A stretch of DNA of 46,286 nucleotides from Phycisphaeraceae bacterium (GTDB lineage: Bacteria; Planctomycetota; Phycisphaerae; Phycisphaerales; UBA1924), in assembly GCA_007693965.1 (NCBI GenBank), contig RECQ01000058.1, forward strand, positions 1 to 46,286, given 5' to 3'. The notes under the pieces are model-generated. The model was not told where the DNA came from, made no database searches, and saw nothing but the letters and a program-made list of their open reading frames with translations. The position numbers were made by a program, and so were the translations under genes. Every line of letters starts with the position of its first letter. Within the stretch, counting starts at the first letter, position 1. Positions 25,605-46,286 of this stretch are shown in pieces.

Positions 25605-25906
25605 ATCGAGCAATCCGAACCTGAACTGCCACGTTCGCAGGACGGGCGCCCGGTCGAAGGACCGGGCGCCCGTTTTTTGTTGCCGATCGGCTTGGAACCC
25701 GAGTGGCGTCCCGGAGGTCCGAAAACAAAAGGCAGTCGAATCCCCCACCTTTCACCAATTGAGCCGAAACCGAATTGAGGCCACACCCAATAAGGAGGGT
25801 ACCGACCCCGGTCTGGTATCGTGGATGCCGGGCAGCACGCTGTGGACGCGGCTGTCGGCTTCGAAAGCACTCTCAATGCCGCAGTCAGGCGGTCGGTGAG
25901 GCGTTC
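25605..25906. other. Intergenic region before the efflux operon
   Basis: 302 bp with the receptor 3 terminator on the left. Further right are AATCCCCCAC (like the receptor 3 leader) and a direct repeat of AATTGAG. The promoter of the efflux operon must lie here, but I see no convincing -35/-10 pair. Confidence 0.5.
25642..25678 (+). terminator. Rho-independent terminator of receptor 3
   Basis: A 14-bp perfect stem starts ACGGGCGCCCGGTC, has a GAAG loop, and ends in a run of T (25673-25678). The core is the same as in the receptor 2 terminator, so gene and terminator were duplicated together. Confidence 0.95.
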
Positions 25907-27337
25907 ATGCAGTCCCTTTTGTCAGCGTTGAAATGGATTGTCGGCATCCTGCTTGTATTGGTGCTCATCTTCGGGGGGCTGGGGGTCTTCCTGTACCCAC
26001 AGATCCGCGAGATGGTCGACCAGGCGCGTCTCGGCGAGAGCGGCATGAAGGTGCGGCTGGAAACCGCCGAGCGTGGCCGGTTGGTTCGCACGGTCAGCGC
26101 CCCGGGCACGCTGGAGCCGAGACGAAAAGTCTCAATCTCGGCTCGTGTCGCGGCCCAAGTCGAATCGCTGCCCTTCCGCGAGGGCGACACTGTCCAGGCC
26201 GGCGAGATCGTCGTGCGGCTGGATGATCGGGAGTTGAAGGCCTCGCTGGACTCCGCCGAGGCGCAGCTCAGAGGCGATGAAGCAAGACTTGAGGGCGCAC
26301 AGGCCACCTACGTGAACGCCGTGGCGGAGTGGGAGCGACTGCAGTCGCTCTTCGACTCCAAGGACGTCAGCCGTTCGGCCCTCGACCAGGCCGAGTCGGA
26401 TCGGCGCGGGCAGGAATCGAACCTCAACGCGGCCCGCGAGAACATCGAAGTCTCGCGGGCCCGCGTCACCCAGGCGCGGGAGAACCTTCGCTACGCCACC
26501 ATCACCTCCCCCATCAGCGGGCGGGTCACGAAGCTCAACACCGAGGAAGGTGAGATCGCGGTTACGGGCACCATGAACAATCCCGGCACGGTGATCATGG
26601 AGATCGCCGACCTTTCCGAGATGCTGGTCAAGGCGTCGGTGAGCGAGCTCGACATCGCTCGCGTAGAGGTCGGACAGACCGCGCGCGTCTACATCAACGC
26701 CTTTCCCGACGACATCTTCGAGGGAACAGTCCGGCAGATCGCGCTCCAGCACACGATGGATCGCGATGGATCCAAGTACTACGAAACCGAGATCCTGCTC
26801 CATCTCTCCGGCGATCGCACGCTCCGCTCAGGGCTCAGCGCCAACGTGGACATCGAGATCGAGACGGTCGAGGGCGTCATCATGGCGCCGAGCCAGGCTG
26901 TGATCGACATCCGCGTCGATGAGCTTCCCTCCGACATCGCCGCCTCGCCGGAAGTCGATCGGGACAAGACCTTCGCGCGGGTGATCTACAAGATGGTCAA
27001 CGGACGCGCCGTCGCTACGCCGGTCCGCATCGGAAGCAGCGATCTTACGCACACTGCCATTCTCTCTGGCATTGACGACACAGACGAGATCGTCACCGGG
27101 CCGTGGTCGGCGCTGCAGAGGATCAAGCACAACGACGCAATCCGCAGGCAGTCTGATGCAGACAAGTCGGACACTGCTCCAGCTGACGCTGACGCAACCG
27201 CGGACTCGATGGCTTCGGGTGAAAACGATGAAGCGGCCGAACGGCCCGCGGCGTCCGAGGAGACAGAAGCTTCGTCCGGCGACGATTCTGATGAAGAAGC
27301 CGCGGTCGCGCAGTCCGACACCGGAACCGCGTCATGA
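25907..27337 (+). CDS. MacA-like periplasmic adaptor (HlyD family) with acidic C-terminal tail
   Basis: Adaptor that links the inner-membrane ABC transporter to the outer-membrane channel. The 476-residue protein has an N-terminal membrane anchor (about residues 9-30), a lipoyl half-motif ([29 protein letters not shown]), a long helical hairpin (about residues 100-195), the second lipoyl half ([16 protein letters not shown]), then beta-barrel and membrane-proximal domains. The last 60 or so residues are Asp-, Glu-, Ala- and Ser-rich with no predicted fold, which is unusual for this family. ATG 25907 gives the anchor at the N-terminus; the frame is open to 25775. The stop overlaps the ATPase start. 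It is the first gene of a four-gene operon. Confidence 0.9.
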
Positions 27338-28128
27338 GCATCTCGATCCGCAAACTCACAAAGGTCTATCGCGTGGGCGTCGAGCCCGTGCATGCGCTGC
27401 GCGGCGTAGATCTGGAAATCGGGAACAACGAATTTGTCGCCATCATGGGCGCTTCGGGCTCCGGCAAGTCGACGCTGATGAACATTCTCGGCTGCCTGGA
27501 CCGGCCCACCTCAGGAGCATATTCGCTCAAGGGTCAGCCGACGCACAAGATGGGCGCCGCGGCCCTGGCGCACATCCGCAACAAGGAGATCGGCTTCGTC
27601 TTCCAGTCCTTCGAGTTGCTGCCGCGGGCGACGGCGTTGAAGAACGTGATGTTGCCGCTGCTCTACTCCAAGTCGGGCTGGTGGCGAGCCCGCCGGGCCG
27701 CAAAGGAGGCTCTCGATCGAGTCGGCCTGACCGATCGCATGACGCACCGGCCCAACCAGCTCTCCGGCGGCCAGCGTCAGCGCGTCGCGGTCGCCCGGGC
27801 CCTTGTGAACCAGCCGAGCATCGTGCTTGCAGACGAACCCACCGGCAACCTCGATTCGACCACGAGTGAAGAGATCATCGAGCTGTTTCGCCAGCTCTAC
27901 CAGGATGGCCAGACCATCGTCATTGTCACGCACGAGGAGGAAGTCGCCGCCCACGCCAGGCGCATTGTCCGACTTCGCGACGGCAGGATCGTTTCCGACC
28001 TGCCCACCGACCAGGACCCCGACCACCGCGCCTGGGCCGAGAGGGCCGCGACGCGGATGCAGTCATATACCGCGGCGCCCGGCGCGAGCAAGGCCGACGC
28101 TGTTGAACACGTGGAGGCCACAACGTGA
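27334..28128 (+). CDS. ABC transporter ATP-binding protein (MacB/LolD type)
   Basis: Energises export by the transporter of this operon. The 264-residue protein has Walker [10 protein letters not shown] (39-47), Q-loop VFQSFELLP, signature [15 protein letters not shown], Walker [13 protein letters not shown] and the His switch VTHE. It belongs to the LolD/MacB ATPase group, here encoded separately from the permease. The C-terminus is extended by about 35 residues with no known role. It overlaps its neighbours on both sides by 4 bp. Confidence 0.95.
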
Positions 28129-41271: not shown

Positions 41272-42555
41272 TTATAGTTCGGGCCCGCCCGTCTGCAGCG
41301 TTGCAAACGCGGCGCGCTCCCGCGCGGCGAGAAGGTCCTGCGGATGATCCATTGCGACTTCGGACCGGGCGAGCGCGGCGCGGGCGTGCCGAAACGCAGC
41401 AGCGCGGATCTTCGGGCATTCGATCGTCGCGAGCGAGCGGAAGGCTTCCTGCAAGCGTGTGGCCACCTCCACATGGCCGGCGCCATCCCGCGCGATCGCG
41501 GTGAATGCGTCGTCGAACATTGCTTCGACACAGAGCTCCGGCATTTCCACACGATCGTATTTGATGGGAGCCGCAAACTCGCTCTCGCACAGCGGCTTCG
41601 ACCAATCCGAGAAGAGCCGAACCAGCGAGCAGATGATTTCAACTGCAGTGCCAGGGTCGTTGACCGCCGGCGAGAGCGCTTTGCCCGCGATCTCCGACAG
41701 CACGACGAGCCCGAAGTGAGGATCTTCGTCGAAAGTCCGGCGTCCTTTGATCCGGAAGGCCTTCCGAACCGCATCGTGGTGGCTGTCTGTCACAGACCTG
41801 CCCGACGCGATGATGGCGGCCAGCATGGTGTCAGGGCCGGCGAAGGCGCCGGGGACGGCCAGCACACGGATCCGCAAGCCTTGTGCTTCGGCGAATTCCT
41901 GGAGATCGGACACCATGACCTGCTGGACCCAACCGATTGACTCCGTGCCCACGGGCGCGCCAGTATTGTCTGAATGCGAGACGGGGACGCACCCGAGCGT
42001 CGGCGATTTGCGCCTGGATTCGAGCGAGTCGGCGGCGGTCGATTCGACCTTGCTGATGGTGGCGCCCATGAGCCCGAGCCTGGCGATTGAGTCAATCCAC
42101 CGCACAAACGTCAGCACCACCCAGATGAAGACGATCACGGTCAGGGCGAGCAAAGCGGCCTGTCCATCATCGTTGTAGAAGTCGTTCTCGTGAAAGAGGA
42201 TCGACACGATGCTGAAGATGAATGCGCCGATGAAGATCGACAGGGCGTTCTGCGAGACGTCGTCTGAGATGACCAGCGTGAGCGCCCGCGGGGTTGTGTG
42301 CCTGCTCGCCGATGCGTACGAGGCGACCATGGCGCCAACGGCGAATGTCGCGATCACCAGCATGCCGCCCGCGAGAATCGTGAGCAGTTTCTCGACAGAA
42401 TCCGGCGTGAGTTCCGGCGCAAAGCTGGCCAGCGGGGTGCGCTCGAACGCCTTGGCCAGGTAGACGGCGCCGATCGAGAACACGCACATCGCCAGCGGCT
42501 TCACCCACAACCGCTCCAACAGCCGGTTGTAGAGAAATTGAATACGCTCGATCAT
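41272..42555 (-). CDS. DUF2254 membrane protein
   Basis: A 427-residue membrane protein. The first half has four hydrophobic segments, with SRHTTPRALTLVISDDVSQNALSIFIGAFIFSIVSIL as the most characteristic DUF2254 block, where Ser, Thr and Pro precede the Arg. The cytoplasmic C-terminal half contains GLVVLSEIAGKALSPAVNDPGTA, also typical. The function of the family is unknown; its topology recalls ion channels or mechanosensitive proteins, which is only a guess. I start at ATG 42555 (MIERIQFLYNRLLERLW), like other members; ATG 42663 would add 36 residues, and the frame is open to 42813. Confidence 0.85.
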   Translation of the reverse strand: MIERIQFLYNRLLERLWVKPLAMCVFSIGAVYLAKAFERTPLASFAPELTPDSVEKLLTILAGGMLVIATFAVGAMVASYASASRHTTPRALTLVISDDVSQNALSIFIGAFIFSIVSILFHENDFYNDDGQAALLALTVIVFIWVVLTFVRWIDSIARLGLMGATISKVESTAADSLESRRKSPTLGCVPVSHSDNTGAPVGTESIGWVQQVMVSDLQEFAEAQGLRIRVLAVPGAFAGPDTMLAAIIASGRSVTDSHHDAVRKAFRIKGRRTFDEDPHFGLVVLSEIAGKALSPAVNDPGTAVEIICSLVRLFSDWSKPLCESEFAAPIKYDRVEMPELCVEAMFDDAFTAIARDGAGHVEVATRLQEAFRSLATIECPKIRAAAFRHARAALARSEVAMDHPQDLLAARERAAFATLQTGGPEL

Positions 42556-43110
42556 GACGGGCTCTCTGGCGATCGCCGCCACCGTTGTTTCGACATCGGT
42601 GGAGTCTACGTTGAGCGCAGCGAGGTTTTCAGATGGGCGCCGCTTTCCAACGTGAAGTCGCATGTCGTCTGCGGCTTCTGCGAGCGACAACGTGAGGTGA
42701 TTCACTGAGTGCAAAGACACCAGGAGTCTCTGAAAAATCCACCAGTCGCCACTCCCCGGCCTAACCGCCGTCTGGATTGTGCGCACACCCTTGCGGCGTG
42801 ACAGGCGCCGCATAGATGCCGATGATCGCTGAGCGGAAAAGCGCGGAGTTCGGGCTGGTGGACGCCTGGAGGCGGGGCGCAGGGACGTGGAGCGCGAGCG
42901 GCCCCCGGAGCCTCGCGTGCGGCGTGCGCGATGGAACTCAAGAGGCGATCGCTCCGCCGCCCCTGGACACCCGCACCCTCACGCTCCGCTTCGAGGGAAA
43001 CCGCGAGCGAGACATCCAAAATTATGTATCCCGTCGCTCGAATTTCAGCTCCGCGATTAGAATTGTCCGGTCGGCTGTCCACCCGACCCATCATTCGAAG
43101 GAAGAAACAC
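42556..43110. other. Divergent intergenic region
   Basis: 555 bp. The left part may be an N-terminal extension of the DUF2254 frame (to 42813). The right part ends with GAAGGAAGAAACAC, a good ribosome binding site for the broken PEP-CTERM gene. I see no other gene, repeat or clear promoter. Confidence 0.5.
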
Positions 43111-43827
43111 ATGACATTCGCTCATGTCACAGGCGTGTCACTCCTCAGCATCCTGCTTGCGCAAGCCGCCTCCGGAGCCGCTTTGCAGGTCACGTCTCTT
43201 GAAGCGATGGTTTCCGCGAACGCGAGCGCAGGCGATGTCTTCGGCGGTTCCGACAGCGACATGCAATGCGCGATGGCGTCATCGTTCGCCGAGCTGCCGA
43301 TCTCCGCCCAGGCGGACGCATCGGTCTCCATCGCCTCCGCCTCAGCGTTGCGATGATCTCCGGCTCGCTCACCAGCGACACGGCGACCTTCTTCGGAGAC
43401 AGCACCGCGCAAAACTTGGACCCACCTCGGACGAGGACGGTGGAAGCCTGGCCTTCGCGAGCAGCAGGATCGAGCTCGAGTTTCTGGCGCCGGCCGGCGC
43501 CGAGTACGTGTTGGACTACGGACTCAACGCATCATCATCGTTCGGGACGCTCGGCGTGTCGCTGCGGTCATCGGTCCATCCGGGGTCCTTCTGGCGTTTG
43601 ACGCATCGAGCGGCGATCTCACGGAGGGGATCGACTTCGGCATGCTCGATGGGGGAATACACCGTCTCGTGATCGAATCCGGCCCCGCCACGGACACGTT
43701 CGGATTTCAGGACTACTCTGAGAGTTTCTTTGTGTCCCTCTTTGTCATCCCCTCCCCCGGCGCCGCCGGGCTGCTCACGTTGGCGGCGCTCCTGAATGGC
43801 GCAAGCCGACTTCGAACGAGACAGCTC
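43111..43827 (+). pseudogene. Frameshifted secreted PEP-CTERM-type protein
   Basis: Protein-like sequence continues over this stretch but changes frame three times. Frame A (43111 to about 43345) has a signal peptide (LLSILLAQAASGAA) and ends at a TGA. The second piece (about 43346-43415) reads ISGSLTSDTATFFGDSTAQN. The third (about 43416-43560) reads SDEDGGSLAFASSRIELEF and VLDYGLNASSSFGTLGVSL. The fourth, back in frame A, reads GPSGVLLAFDASSGDLTEG and ends VIPSPGAAGLLTLAALLNGA, followed by SRLR: a PEP-CTERM-like sorting helix. Each change equals the loss of one base (or gain of two). No stop follows the sorting helix; the frame runs into the tRNA-like fragment. It was a surface protein; sequencing error at several sites is an alternative explanation. 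Confidence 0.8.
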
Positions 43828-44167
43828 CTGCAGCCCCAAGTCACGCCAAGCACGATCCGCGCGGTTTCTTCTGGGAAAGAGCGGGCGAGCGGACTCGAAC
43901 CGGCTCTGGACGGGCGTAGAGGGGGCTGGATGCTGGTCTGTGAAGAAGAGAGCCCCGGCTCATTCGAGAGGCTGCAGGAAATTGAGAGGAAGGGTCGAGC
44001 ATCACCCGACAGCGTGTCTGAGGAGGCGAACTGCGCCCTTCTGGAGGCGCCCGGATTGCACCTTCATCACCTCGCCTGCGGAACCCGGCAATACGCCGAA
44101 GGGCCCCGCGTTCAACGTGTGACGTCGCTCCGAGTGAGCCGTTCCGAACGTGATTATTGGAGGCTTT
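43828..44167. other. Intergenic region with tRNA-Gly fragment
   Basis: 340 bp. It contains the 25-bp copy of the tRNA-Gly 3' end (43880-43904) and, at the right end, the GGAGG ribosome binding site of the next gene. No other gene was recognised; the reading frame that crosses it is the run-on of the broken PEP-CTERM gene. Confidence 0.6.
43880..43904 (-). repeat. tRNA-Gly 3'-end fragment, att-like direct repeat
   Basis: The 25 bp match 46245-46269 of the tRNA-Gly at 24 of 25 positions and in the same orientation. They cover the discriminator base, the 3' acceptor strand and most of the T arm. The 5' part of a tRNA is absent on the minus strand upstream, and the T stem contains a mismatch, so this is not a functional tRNA. 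Direct repeats of a tRNA 3' end are the usual trace of site-specific integration. Confidence 0.75.
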
Positions 44168-45967
44168 ATGATGCTCAGCAGCTTGCAAACATTTCGTGTT
44201 CTTGTGCTTCTCGGCGGCGTGTTGAGCAGCGCCGGGATCGCCTGTGCTCAGGCGTCGCAGGCTTCGGATCTACGCCGGAACGCGTCGGCGCGCGATGTAG
44301 ACATGCGTCCACCGCGCACGGACGCTGAGCGACGAGCGCTGCACAACGAACTGCCGAACCCGACGCTATTCGATGGTTCACCTTCAGCGCAGGGACACTT
44401 CGGCAGCTCCAAGCAGGCTTCGACCTGGCTTGAGGGCCCCTCCCCCGGCAACCTGAGCGTCCAGATTCTCGACCTTGAGAATCAACTGGGCAAGTATGTC
44501 GGCACATCGCCCTGGCATGTCGTGAGCACCCGCCGCTATCTCGAGCGCAAGGCGGTCACGATCTGGGGCGCAACGCTGACCGACGCGTACCGGATCATCG
44601 TTGACGGCGAGCGCTTCGAAGCCACCGACCGCTTCGCCATCAACCGGTTCCCGATCTCGCTCCCGTGGAATCTCTTCGCGGCGGACGACGGTCGCGTGTT
44701 CGTGCCCGATCCCGCCGGCCGGCGACTGAGGCCCGGACGGACCTCGGGCCCGACGCTCCTTGTGCTCAGCGATGATCCGAACGGCTCCGGGCGGCTCGAC
44801 CAAGGCATCAATCTCCTCCAAGCCGTGGAGCTGGACGAGGACGCACTCCGAGCGGCGTGCCGCCCGCCGAGGAGCGCGACGCTCGTCAAAGGGGAAACAG
44901 GCTCAAACTTCCGCCCCGGATTCAACGGCGAAATCATCACAAAGGTGGTGTACAAACTCGATGACGGCGAGATCCGGTCTTACCTGGTCGCGCTCGACAC
45001 ACAGTTCGAGATCATCGCTGGTGGGGAGATCGGCCCCACGGCGCCATCGAACGACATCCCCGCTGAGCCCGACGGCCCGGGCCGAACAGCCTTCTATGTG
45101 GCGACAGATGTGGCCATCGTCAAGATGGTGTTCGACTCGAGCCGACGCACCATGGAGCGGCGGTGGACGGTGCAACTCCCGATCCGCGGGCGCTTCGGCA
45201 CGACGCCGACGCTCATGAATACACCCGATGGCGAGCGGTTCGTGATCGCAGTGGATGCGAAAGCGGCTGTGGTCTCCGGGTTCAACGGCCTGATCGCCTA
45301 CAGCCCCGATACGCGTCCGAACGCGCTGATCGCGGTCCGTCGAGACGATCAGATTGGTGGGAAACCGCGCGTGATCACATTCGAACTGCCCGAATGGCTG
45401 GGAGCGATCGAGAACTCCCCGGCGGTTCGCGGCGGTGTGGCTGTGATCACGAACTACACCGGCTATCTGCCGAACGGGCTGGCGATCCCGCCGGGCGGTC
45501 AGGCTCCCCCCGCGAAGGCGGCGAGCTGGGGGCAATCGCCCGATGCCCGGCCCGAGTTTGCCACCGGCGTGCTTGCGGTTGCTTATGCGCCCGCCCTGGA
45601 CTCTTTCGAGATTCTCTGGCAACGACCGGATATCCAGTACAGCGGCATCGCGACGATCAGCGAGTCGTCGAACATCGTCTATGGCGCCGGCGCCGAGTGG
45701 GAGAGCGGGATGACCTACTTCTACGGCCTCCGGCTTCTCGACGATGCCAACGGCCGCGGGGGTGAGCTGATCATTCGCGAGGAACTCGGCGTCGCCCCGT
45801 TCCGCGAGCCGCGCAGGGACCGTCGCGGAAACTTCGGCTTCGAGCGTTCGGATTACCGATTTGCTGAAGGCGAATTCTTTGACGCAGGCAACAGCCTGAT
45901 CATCCTTGAAGACGGATCAGCCATCGTCAACGGCGGTCGGGCGCTCGCTCGGATTCGAGCTCGGTAG
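44168..45967 (+). CDS. Secreted protein, function unknown
   Basis: A 599-residue protein with a signal peptide (FRVLVLLGGVLSSAGIACAQA). The body is beta-rich. Repeated strand-like segments (ISLPWNLFAADDGRVFVPDP, VVYKLDDGEIRSYLVALD, FNGLIAYSPDTRPNALIAVR, LIILEDGSAIVNGGRALARI) suggest a beta-propeller of the PQQ/WD kind, which is an inference. GGAGG precedes both ATG 44168 (4 nt) and ATG 44171 (7 nt). It is the only clear gene between the two tRNA-Gly repeats, so it may belong to a small insertion. I recognise no family or catalytic motif. Confidence 0.8.
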   Translation: MMLSSLQTFRVLVLLGGVLSSAGIACAQASQASDLRRNASARDVDMRPPRTDAERRALHNELPNPTLFDGSPSAQGHFGSSKQASTWLEGPSPGNLSVQILDLENQLGKYVGTSPWHVVSTRRYLERKAVTIWGATLTDAYRIIVDGERFEATDRFAINRFPISLPWNLFAADDGRVFVPDPAGRRLRPGRTSGPTLLVLSDDPNGSGRLDQGINLLQAVELDEDALRAACRPPRSATLVKGETGSNFRPGFNGEIITKVVYKLDDGEIRSYLVALDTQFEIIAGGEIGPTAPSNDIPAEPDGPGRTAFYVATDVAIVKMVFDSSRRTMERRWTVQLPIRGRFGTTPTLMNTPDGERFVIAVDAKAAVVSGFNGLIAYSPDTRPNALIAVRRDDQIGGKPRVITFELPEWLGAIENSPAVRGGVAVITNYTGYLPNGLAIPPGGQAPPAKAASWGQSPDARPEFATGVLAVAYAPALDSFEILWQRPDIQYSGIATISESSNIVYGAGAEWESGMTYFYGLRLLDDANGRGGELIIREELGVAPFREPRRDRRGNFGFERSDYRFAEGEFFDAGNSLIILEDGSAIVNGGRALARIRAR

Positions 45968-46244
45968 CGATCCGCCGCGGTTGACCGTGTCGCGGCTGAC
46001 GCCCGCGATCCCGCAGAGCTGGCCGAGTGACCAACTGTTCATGCGTTGGATTCGCTACTCAAACACCGTTGCAGGGTTGCCCCGGAGGGCACTGCGAGCA
46101 GGGTCCGGCGCACTGCATTTCGGGCAGACCTGCAATGCAAAGGCCCAGAAAGCATCCGACGCAGTACCCATGCAATGCGCACTACTCGAGCGAAAAATGT
46201 CCGCAAACACTTGCCTGGCAATCGCTGGCGGGCATTATCTTGAA

Positions 46245-46286
46245 AGCGGGCGACCGGACTCGAACCGGCAACATTCAGCTTGGAAG
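46245..46286 (-). tRNA. tRNA-Gly (anticodon TCC), partial at window edge
   Basis: The minus strand reads CTTCCAAGCTGA and on through a T arm GCCGG-TTCGAGT-CCGGT to the 3' acceptor strand CGCCCGC with discriminator T. The anticodon TCC in the loop CTTCCAA reads glycine GGA codons. The 5' half lies beyond the right end of the window. The 3' CCA is not encoded. Its 3' end points left, towards the secreted orphan and the att-like repeat. Confidence 0.92.

Follow-up and report, generated by a model that had tools for sequence, protein, structure and literature searches.

The final 2.3 kb of the DNA considered here are most probably what is left of an integrative element whose insertion site was the 3' end of a tRNA-Gly(TCC) gene. 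The window, as we term the whole stretch analysed, is a contig of 46,286 nucleotides from a Phycisphaeraceae bacterium (GenBank assembly GCA_007693965.1, contig RECQ01000058.1), and the segment in question lies between a partial tRNA gene at the contig end and a displaced copy of that gene's 3' end, hereafter the scar (Table 1). Our handles beginning with G, C and L denote genomes, contigs and loci, respectively, with G000 and C62 standing for the genome and the contig of the window. Integration at tRNA genes is an established habit of tyrosine integrases. An earlier note, made from the sequence alone, had proposed a decayed integrated element at this gene and had seen no integrase in it, and both statements have held up. 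The decayed, integrase-less element is supported by the geometry of such scars in relatives, by decayed attachment-side repeats and by a fragment of a DUF932-like gene. No integrase was found among the scanned open reading frames (ORFs) of the segment, all nine PF00589 matches in G000 lie on other contigs, and the integrase of the element family described below had no match in G000 at E 1e-20.

Table 1. Features of the window at and around the tRNA-Gly segment.
Feature	Position	Strand	Basis or remark
PEP-CTERM-type probable pseudogene, three frame changes, outside the scar	43111..43821	+	our reading of the three-frame translation
Displaced attachment-site scar, 25-nt copy of the tRNA-Gly 3' end	43880..43904	-	repeat alignment; genome 25-mer search
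Spacer without recognised features or integrase-side repeat	43905..44167	.	sequence comparison; repeat model
599-aa protein gene, signal-peptide-like N-terminus, GGAGG upstream (our reading), possible cargo	44168..45967	+	ORF list; one distant homologue, in G195
24-codon DUF932-like gene fragment, both ends missing	45977..46048	-	22/24 residues as in G409
tRNA-proximal end (leader) of the element	46050..46244	-	resembles DNA 3' of tRNA-Gly in G409 and G592
Decayed paired repeat GCATTGCA-N14-GCAGTGCG	46109..46138	-	106 nt from the tRNA end; intact form GTAGTGCA-N14/15-GTAGTGCA
3' 42 nt of tRNA-Gly(TCC)	46245..46286	-	contig ends inside the gene; remainder on C12

Alignment bears out the direct repeat that had first drawn attention to the locus: positions 43880-43904 and 46245-46269 agree at 24/25 positions in the same orientation, with the scar on the 3' side of the tRNA and 2340 bp between the two copies. 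The single mismatch falls in the T stem, at position 64 in our own numbering, where it would break a pair. The tRNA gene is read from the minus strand and only its last 42 nt are contained in the window, the complete gene being found at C12:14-85; because the contig ends inside it, ARAGORN did not call tRNA-Gly in the window. When the 25-mer (one free position, up to 3 mismatches) was searched across the 3.48 Mb of G000, five places were recovered, namely the scar and the tRNA copy, C12, which is the same tRNA seen across the contig overlap, a tRNA-Gly(CCC) on C16, and a phage-like contig, C42. The reversed 25-mer, used as a control, had no match in the same 3.48 Mb, and the repeat is therefore beyond chance. 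The scattering of tRNA-like fragments through the genome, which the earlier note had named as a sign against insertion, was not seen: besides the scar, the sole truncated match is that on C42, beside an integrase. The position of the tRNA at a contig end might favour a chance similarity or an assembly artefact, but the scar lies 2.4 kb inside the contig, the reversed pattern found nothing in the genome, and C12 reads the tRNA along with 13 bp of this flank, such that we give this explanation practically no credence.

The way in which the contig ends is itself informative. Its final 55 bp are the initial 55 bp of C12, and it stops exactly at the last base of the 42 bp that it has in common with C42, where the next base is G in C12 and T in C42. 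This break suggests a mixed population in the sample, in which the assembler met both empty and occupied tRNA-Gly sites. The left end of the contig also breaks inside a tRNA gene, in this case tRNA-Val, with a 55-bp overlap with C53. Near that end, the ORFs at 226-1545 and 1550-2881 have fairly unusual codon usage (distances of 0.232 and 0.260), and the first encodes the motif FIDLFAGIGGM, which we take to be that of cytosine methyltransferases.

The arrangement at the window end recurs at the tRNA-Gly genes of relatives. Across 37 genomes (G000 and 36 others), a search with the tRNA-Gly sequence gave 137 matches, of which 30 were partial, a class defined by the query end reached; all 30 keep the 3' end and none keeps the 5' part only. 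Three of these partial matches are in G000, one being the tRNA itself, which the end of the contig interrupts; the match on G012:C1 likewise stands at a contig end. With 18 partial matches left out for want of a full match on the same contig, 12 pairs remained, and in 12/12 the fragment was on the strand and the 3' side of the near-full gene; one of these (G015 C123) was dropped, its near-full gene being tRNA-Asp. The 11 true tRNA-Gly pairs, distributed over seven genomes with spacings of 0.9-44.5 kb, are arranged in this way without exception (11/11). PF00589, in a search that took in 12 of the 37 genomes, exceeded the cut-off in 8 of the 11 gaps between full gene and fragment, the gaps without a match being those of G001 C10, G001 C81 and G049 C18:4539. 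A segmental duplication or rearrangement that copied the tRNA 3' end with no integrase involved is very improbable: nothing specific speaks for it beyond the failure to find an integrase gene in the segment, and it is opposed both by the uniform strand and side of the 11 pairs and by the element end and gene fragment that abut the tRNA.

Two further observations concern the elements at these sites. In G049 (C18:908345-953006), a full tRNA-Gly gene and two displaced 3' copies form a tandem array, with an integrase match adjoining the tRNA-side end of each unit. In G017, G011, G016, G038 and G049, integrase ORFs adjacent to tRNA-Gly extend into the tRNA gene, and their C-termini are thus encoded on its antisense strand, in various frames. 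A similar reading of 46050-46244, as an integrase C-terminus running into the tRNA, was dropped on finding that its similarity to G049 lay mainly in the tRNA-encoded stretch.

Geometry of this kind is familiar from the literature. Islander recognises an island by a tRNA gene that is followed on its 3' side by a displaced, like-oriented 3' fragment (PMC4383910). The segment resembles such islands in the shared orientation of tRNA and fragment, in the position of the fragment on the 3' side and in its retention of the tRNA end, and the 2340 bp between the copies fall within the length range of 2-200 kb; it differs in that no integrase gene was found inside, such that it fails the integrase filter (PMC4383910). 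The generation of tRNA gene fragments by element integration has also been described (PMC9897764), and the scar is similarly a partial tRNA copy, differing from those fragments in that only 25 nt are left and the element is almost deleted.

The locus before insertion could not be recovered by comparison. No empty site was found among 60 relatives, all of other genera, nor did a relative among those compared carry the same 2.3-kb segment. For synteny, the ORFs of the window beyond 20 kb, together with the initial 20 kb of C12, were compared with 21 loci, 20 of them at tRNA-Gly. Genes of C12 recur at the G002 locus, with short pieces in G021 and G008. Only two ORFs of C62 matched tRNA-Gly loci, 25775-27337 at one locus and 27334-28128 at six, and therefore no empty site was readable. 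The G016 relative of the DUF2254 gene (41272-42813) sits away from tRNA-Gly.

An indication of what was inserted comes from the 195 bp directly behind the tRNA, the leader of Table 1. This stretch resembles the DNA behind tRNA-Gly in G409 and G592: tblastx gives 45% over 84 codons, 14 of those codons being inside the tRNA, and a DNA alignment agrees. A 65-residue query derived from it matched 44 of 301 genomes at E <= 0.1, the own genome among them, with one clear match besides the latter: G409 at E 2.4e-6 (the next at E 0.0057), where the matching DNA is directly behind tRNA-Gly(TCC). Behind their tRNA-Gly genes, G409 and G592 share 433 bp at 80% identity. In G592 (C83, L115:1696-2662), the same element end recurs behind tRNA-Gly(CCC) in what looks like a truncated form, followed by an ORF that we read as short-chain dehydrogenase-like.

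Beyond the leader, positions 45978-46049 are 93% identical in DNA to G409 over 72 bp (E 7e-24), within a DUF932-like gene. Against the DUF932-like genes of other genomes, the 72-bp piece is 88% identical in G625 and 85% in G020, and in G015 and G251 the identity is 84-85% over 62 bp. The assignment to DUF932 derives from fuller copies of the gene, with matches at E 4.4e-5 in G251 (over the cut-off) and 3.4e-4 in G625 (below it). The G409 stretch matched 26 of 400 genomes of the order, many over short lengths only, and relatives of the DUF932-like protein are present in 5 viral contigs. The tRNA and the DUF932-like piece are 195 bp apart in the window against 601 bp in G409, and some 400 bp are therefore missing in the window.

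Behind tRNA-Gly in G409, G015, G020 and G251 we also found a paired repeat, GTAGTGCA-N14/15-GTAGTGCA. A search of 400 genomes for the exact pair, allowing gaps of 10-16, returned 27 matches in 17 genomes, none of them in G000. The reversed pattern gave 18 matches in the same search (our count from the table), and the number of matches alone is therefore a weak argument. Weight attaches instead to the constant gap and the proximity to tRNAs: the gap is 14-15 in 26/27 exact pairs, and 25/27 adjoin a tRNA, either complete or as a 3' fragment (full genes by ARAGORN, fragments by eye). The pairs are of two kinds. On the tRNA side (n=14), a full tRNA-Gly precedes 11 and a tRNA-Gly fragment 2, with neither at the remaining one (L175). 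On the integrase side (n=12), six stand before a full tRNA (three Gly, and one each Arg, Ala and Met) and six before a tRNA-Gly 3' fragment; an integrase-like N-terminus is readable opposite 11 of these 12, the exception, L162, being too near a contig end, and some of the other integrase-side loci are interrupted by contig ends. The pair at L159 lacks a neighbour of this sort.

A decayed form of the tRNA-side pair is present in the window. With a model built from the 14 tRNA-side copies, which extends a few bases beyond the core, positions 46138-46109 score 25.1, against 3.1 for the second-best place in the window and 12.8 for the highest of 12 random sequences of window length; the intact copies score 46.1-58.6, but constitute the training set of the model. 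The decayed repeat also aligns with G015 (blastn, 83% over 36 bp, E 5e-4). Its distance from the tRNA, 106 nt, is that of G409, the range in ten other copies being 72-92. The corresponding integrase-side model gave no convincing match, either at the scar or in the rest of the window (best score 4.3, against 44.2-58.3 for its training copies).

Fuller copies of the family make the decayed one legible. In G251 (JAJDDK010000002.1), 3' copies of tRNA-Gly are found at 130687, 139339 and 175218, with 0, 1 and 7 mismatches in 44 nt. The copies at 130687 and 139339 are each followed by tRNA-side repeats, and the one at 175218 is preceded by integrase-side repeats, with an integrase gene starting 53 nt from these. 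The unit from 139339, annotated up to about 149 kb and from about 173 kb on, runs from tRNA-Gly 3' copy through repeats, a DUF932-like gene, defence genes, integrase and repeats to the outer tRNA-Gly 3' copy; near the first end the defence genes, which accompany the DUF932-like gene, encode an HmaC/DUF499-like ATPase and an HmaB-like methyltransferase. An Hma-type ATPase and methyltransferase are found in G625 as well. In a lambda-type tyrosine-integrase attP, arm sites flank the core on both sides. The G251 unit resembles this plan in that its core lies in the 3' half of the tRNA, with repeat pairs on both sides and an integrase adjacent, and the paired repeats would accordingly be candidate integrase-binding sites, as judged from their sequence and placement. 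Measured against this family, the segment retains the repeat pair 3' of tRNA-Gly as a decayed copy only and the DUF932-like gene after the repeats as a fragment only. An integrase with a repeat pair at the other end was not found, and the outer tRNA copy measures 25 nt, as opposed to the 44 nt that reach the anticodon loop in G251.

The defence genes place the fuller copies near a described system. Hma is treated as a DUF499-centred, BREX-related system in PMC12839542, and the fuller copies in relatives resemble Hma/BREX-related systems (PMC12839542; PADLOC) in their HmaC/DUF499-like and HmaB/DUF1156-like genes. The window segment differs from such systems in that no DUF499 ATPase, methyltransferase or helicase gene was recognised in it.

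The family integrase (L180:200-1447, P0001) gave no Pfam match at E 0.01 in a scan of this one full protein, whereas it matches PHROG integrases at E 5e-23; finders that rely on PF00589 could therefore miss it. Its PDB matches, viral surface proteins at E 0.08 and above, were set aside as chance. At E 1e-20 it gave matches in 8 of 101 genomes, and it had no match in the viral contigs. Querying the genome contig collection with it returned six loci, all in Phycisphaerales or Phycisphaerae metagenome-assembled genomes. A 3' fragment of tRNA-Gly lies close to where the integrase begins in 6/6, and the exact repeat pair is present in 4/6; these loci were already in the repeat and relative set and do not constitute an independent sample. 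We found no description of the family in open-licence PMC papers.

Between the first two tRNA-Gly 3' copies of G251 lies an 8.6-kb unit (C2:130731-139339) with MarR-like and HlyD-like genes, tRNA-side repeats, no integrase-side repeats by the model and no integrase in the two ORFs scanned, and it directly adjoins the unit with the complete integrase end. By this parallel, the segment might belong to a class of integrase-free cargo cassettes that are bounded by attachment sites at tRNA-Gly and depend for their mobility on an integrase supplied in trans by a neighbouring element, a reading that we consider improbable.

Two other histories would give the scar a different author. In one, an older and unrelated element with a T-stem-region site would have left the scar as its outer end, the repeats and the DUF932-like fragment would stem from another insertion at the same tRNA, and the secreted gene would have lain between them. 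The length of the scar, unlike that of the G251 copies, would suit such a sequence of events, as would the tandem units at tRNA-Gly in G049 and G251 and the 1836 of 3919 islands that Islander lists with T-stem-region sites (PMC4383910). No second element end is recognisable beside the scar, however, and a deletion ending within the core accounts for its shortness as simply; we regard two insertions as unlikely, albeit worth serious consideration. In the other, the scar would have been left by the phage on C42 (L014:14663-14704 in G000), a phage-like contig with genes for a primase, a helicase, a Sak4-like protein and an integrase. Its 42-bp copy is identical to the tRNA 3' end and its integrase gene starts only ~0.3-0.4 kb away, but a search of the own genome with the segment DNA, in which 40 of 108 candidates were scored, matched C42 at the tRNA end only, and the tRNA-side end of the segment matches another element family. 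This origin is accordingly quite improbable.

The 599-aa protein gene occupies most of the segment, and its status as element cargo is unproven. Across the genome and viral contig collections a pattern scan for the secreted ORF returned no relative, and the 60 relatives gave none at E 0.001; in the other 396 genomes of the class, G195 alone matched at E < 0.001, with 18 further genomes at E 0.0026-0.087. The G195 homologue is 24% identical over an alignment of 570 columns, nearly the whole length (E 8e-16, computed against that locus alone), and its locus has no neighbour gene in common with the window. The Pfam scan of this ORF, the one long ORF of the segment, gave no match below E 0.16, the AlphaFold single-sequence model had a mean pLDDT of 32.5 and was useless, and a PDB sequence search with the two-member alignment found one chance match (E 0.76). 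Codon usage is host-like (distance 0.109, against 0.114-0.255 in 17 background genes) and the GC content of the segment differs little from that of the window (0.637 vs 0.643); there is therefore no foreign mark on the gene. The earlier description of a secreted orphan as the only clear gene of the segment thus needs amending on two counts, given the 24-codon trace of a DUF932-like gene and the distant homologue in G195.

Outside the scar, the PEP-CTERM gene had been thought to run into the repeat without a stop, as if cut by the insertion. The first part is accurate, as the frame is open through the repeat up to 44328. The second is not borne out: on our reading, three-frame translation shows three frame changes and a PEP-CTERM-like signal that is complete ~59 nt ahead of the repeat, and the gene therefore looks like a frameshifted pseudogene rather than one cut by the event.

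For the reading that we favour, of a single decayed element, the following course may be proposed. A tyrosine integrase would have recombined the tRNA 3' half carried by the element with that of the chromosome, restoring the tRNA at the joint and displacing the old 3' end, of which the 25-nt scar at 43880 would be the remains. The element would have belonged to a family of the Phycisphaerales with paired GTAGTGCA repeats at the tRNA-side end, a DUF932-like gene next in several copies, HmaC/DUF499-like and HmaB-like defence genes in the fuller ones, and, at the other end, an integrase and another pair of repeats adjoining the outer copy of the tRNA. We infer that one insertion produced both the scar and the tRNA-side end, as its two ends. 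Deletions, themselves reconstructed together with their order, would then have removed ~400 bp from the tRNA-side end, the greater part of the DUF932-like gene and the sequence past it, a loss that extended to the integrase, the integrase-side repeats and ~17 nt on the inner side of the outer tRNA copy. The secreted protein gene may be surviving cargo or a later arrival.

As a remnant the segment is ordinary. It nevertheless exposes a family of tRNA-Gly elements in the Phycisphaerales with recognisable ends, some copies of which carry Hma/BREX-related defence genes, and the repeat signature makes decayed copies detectable where island finders that require an integrase would not look.
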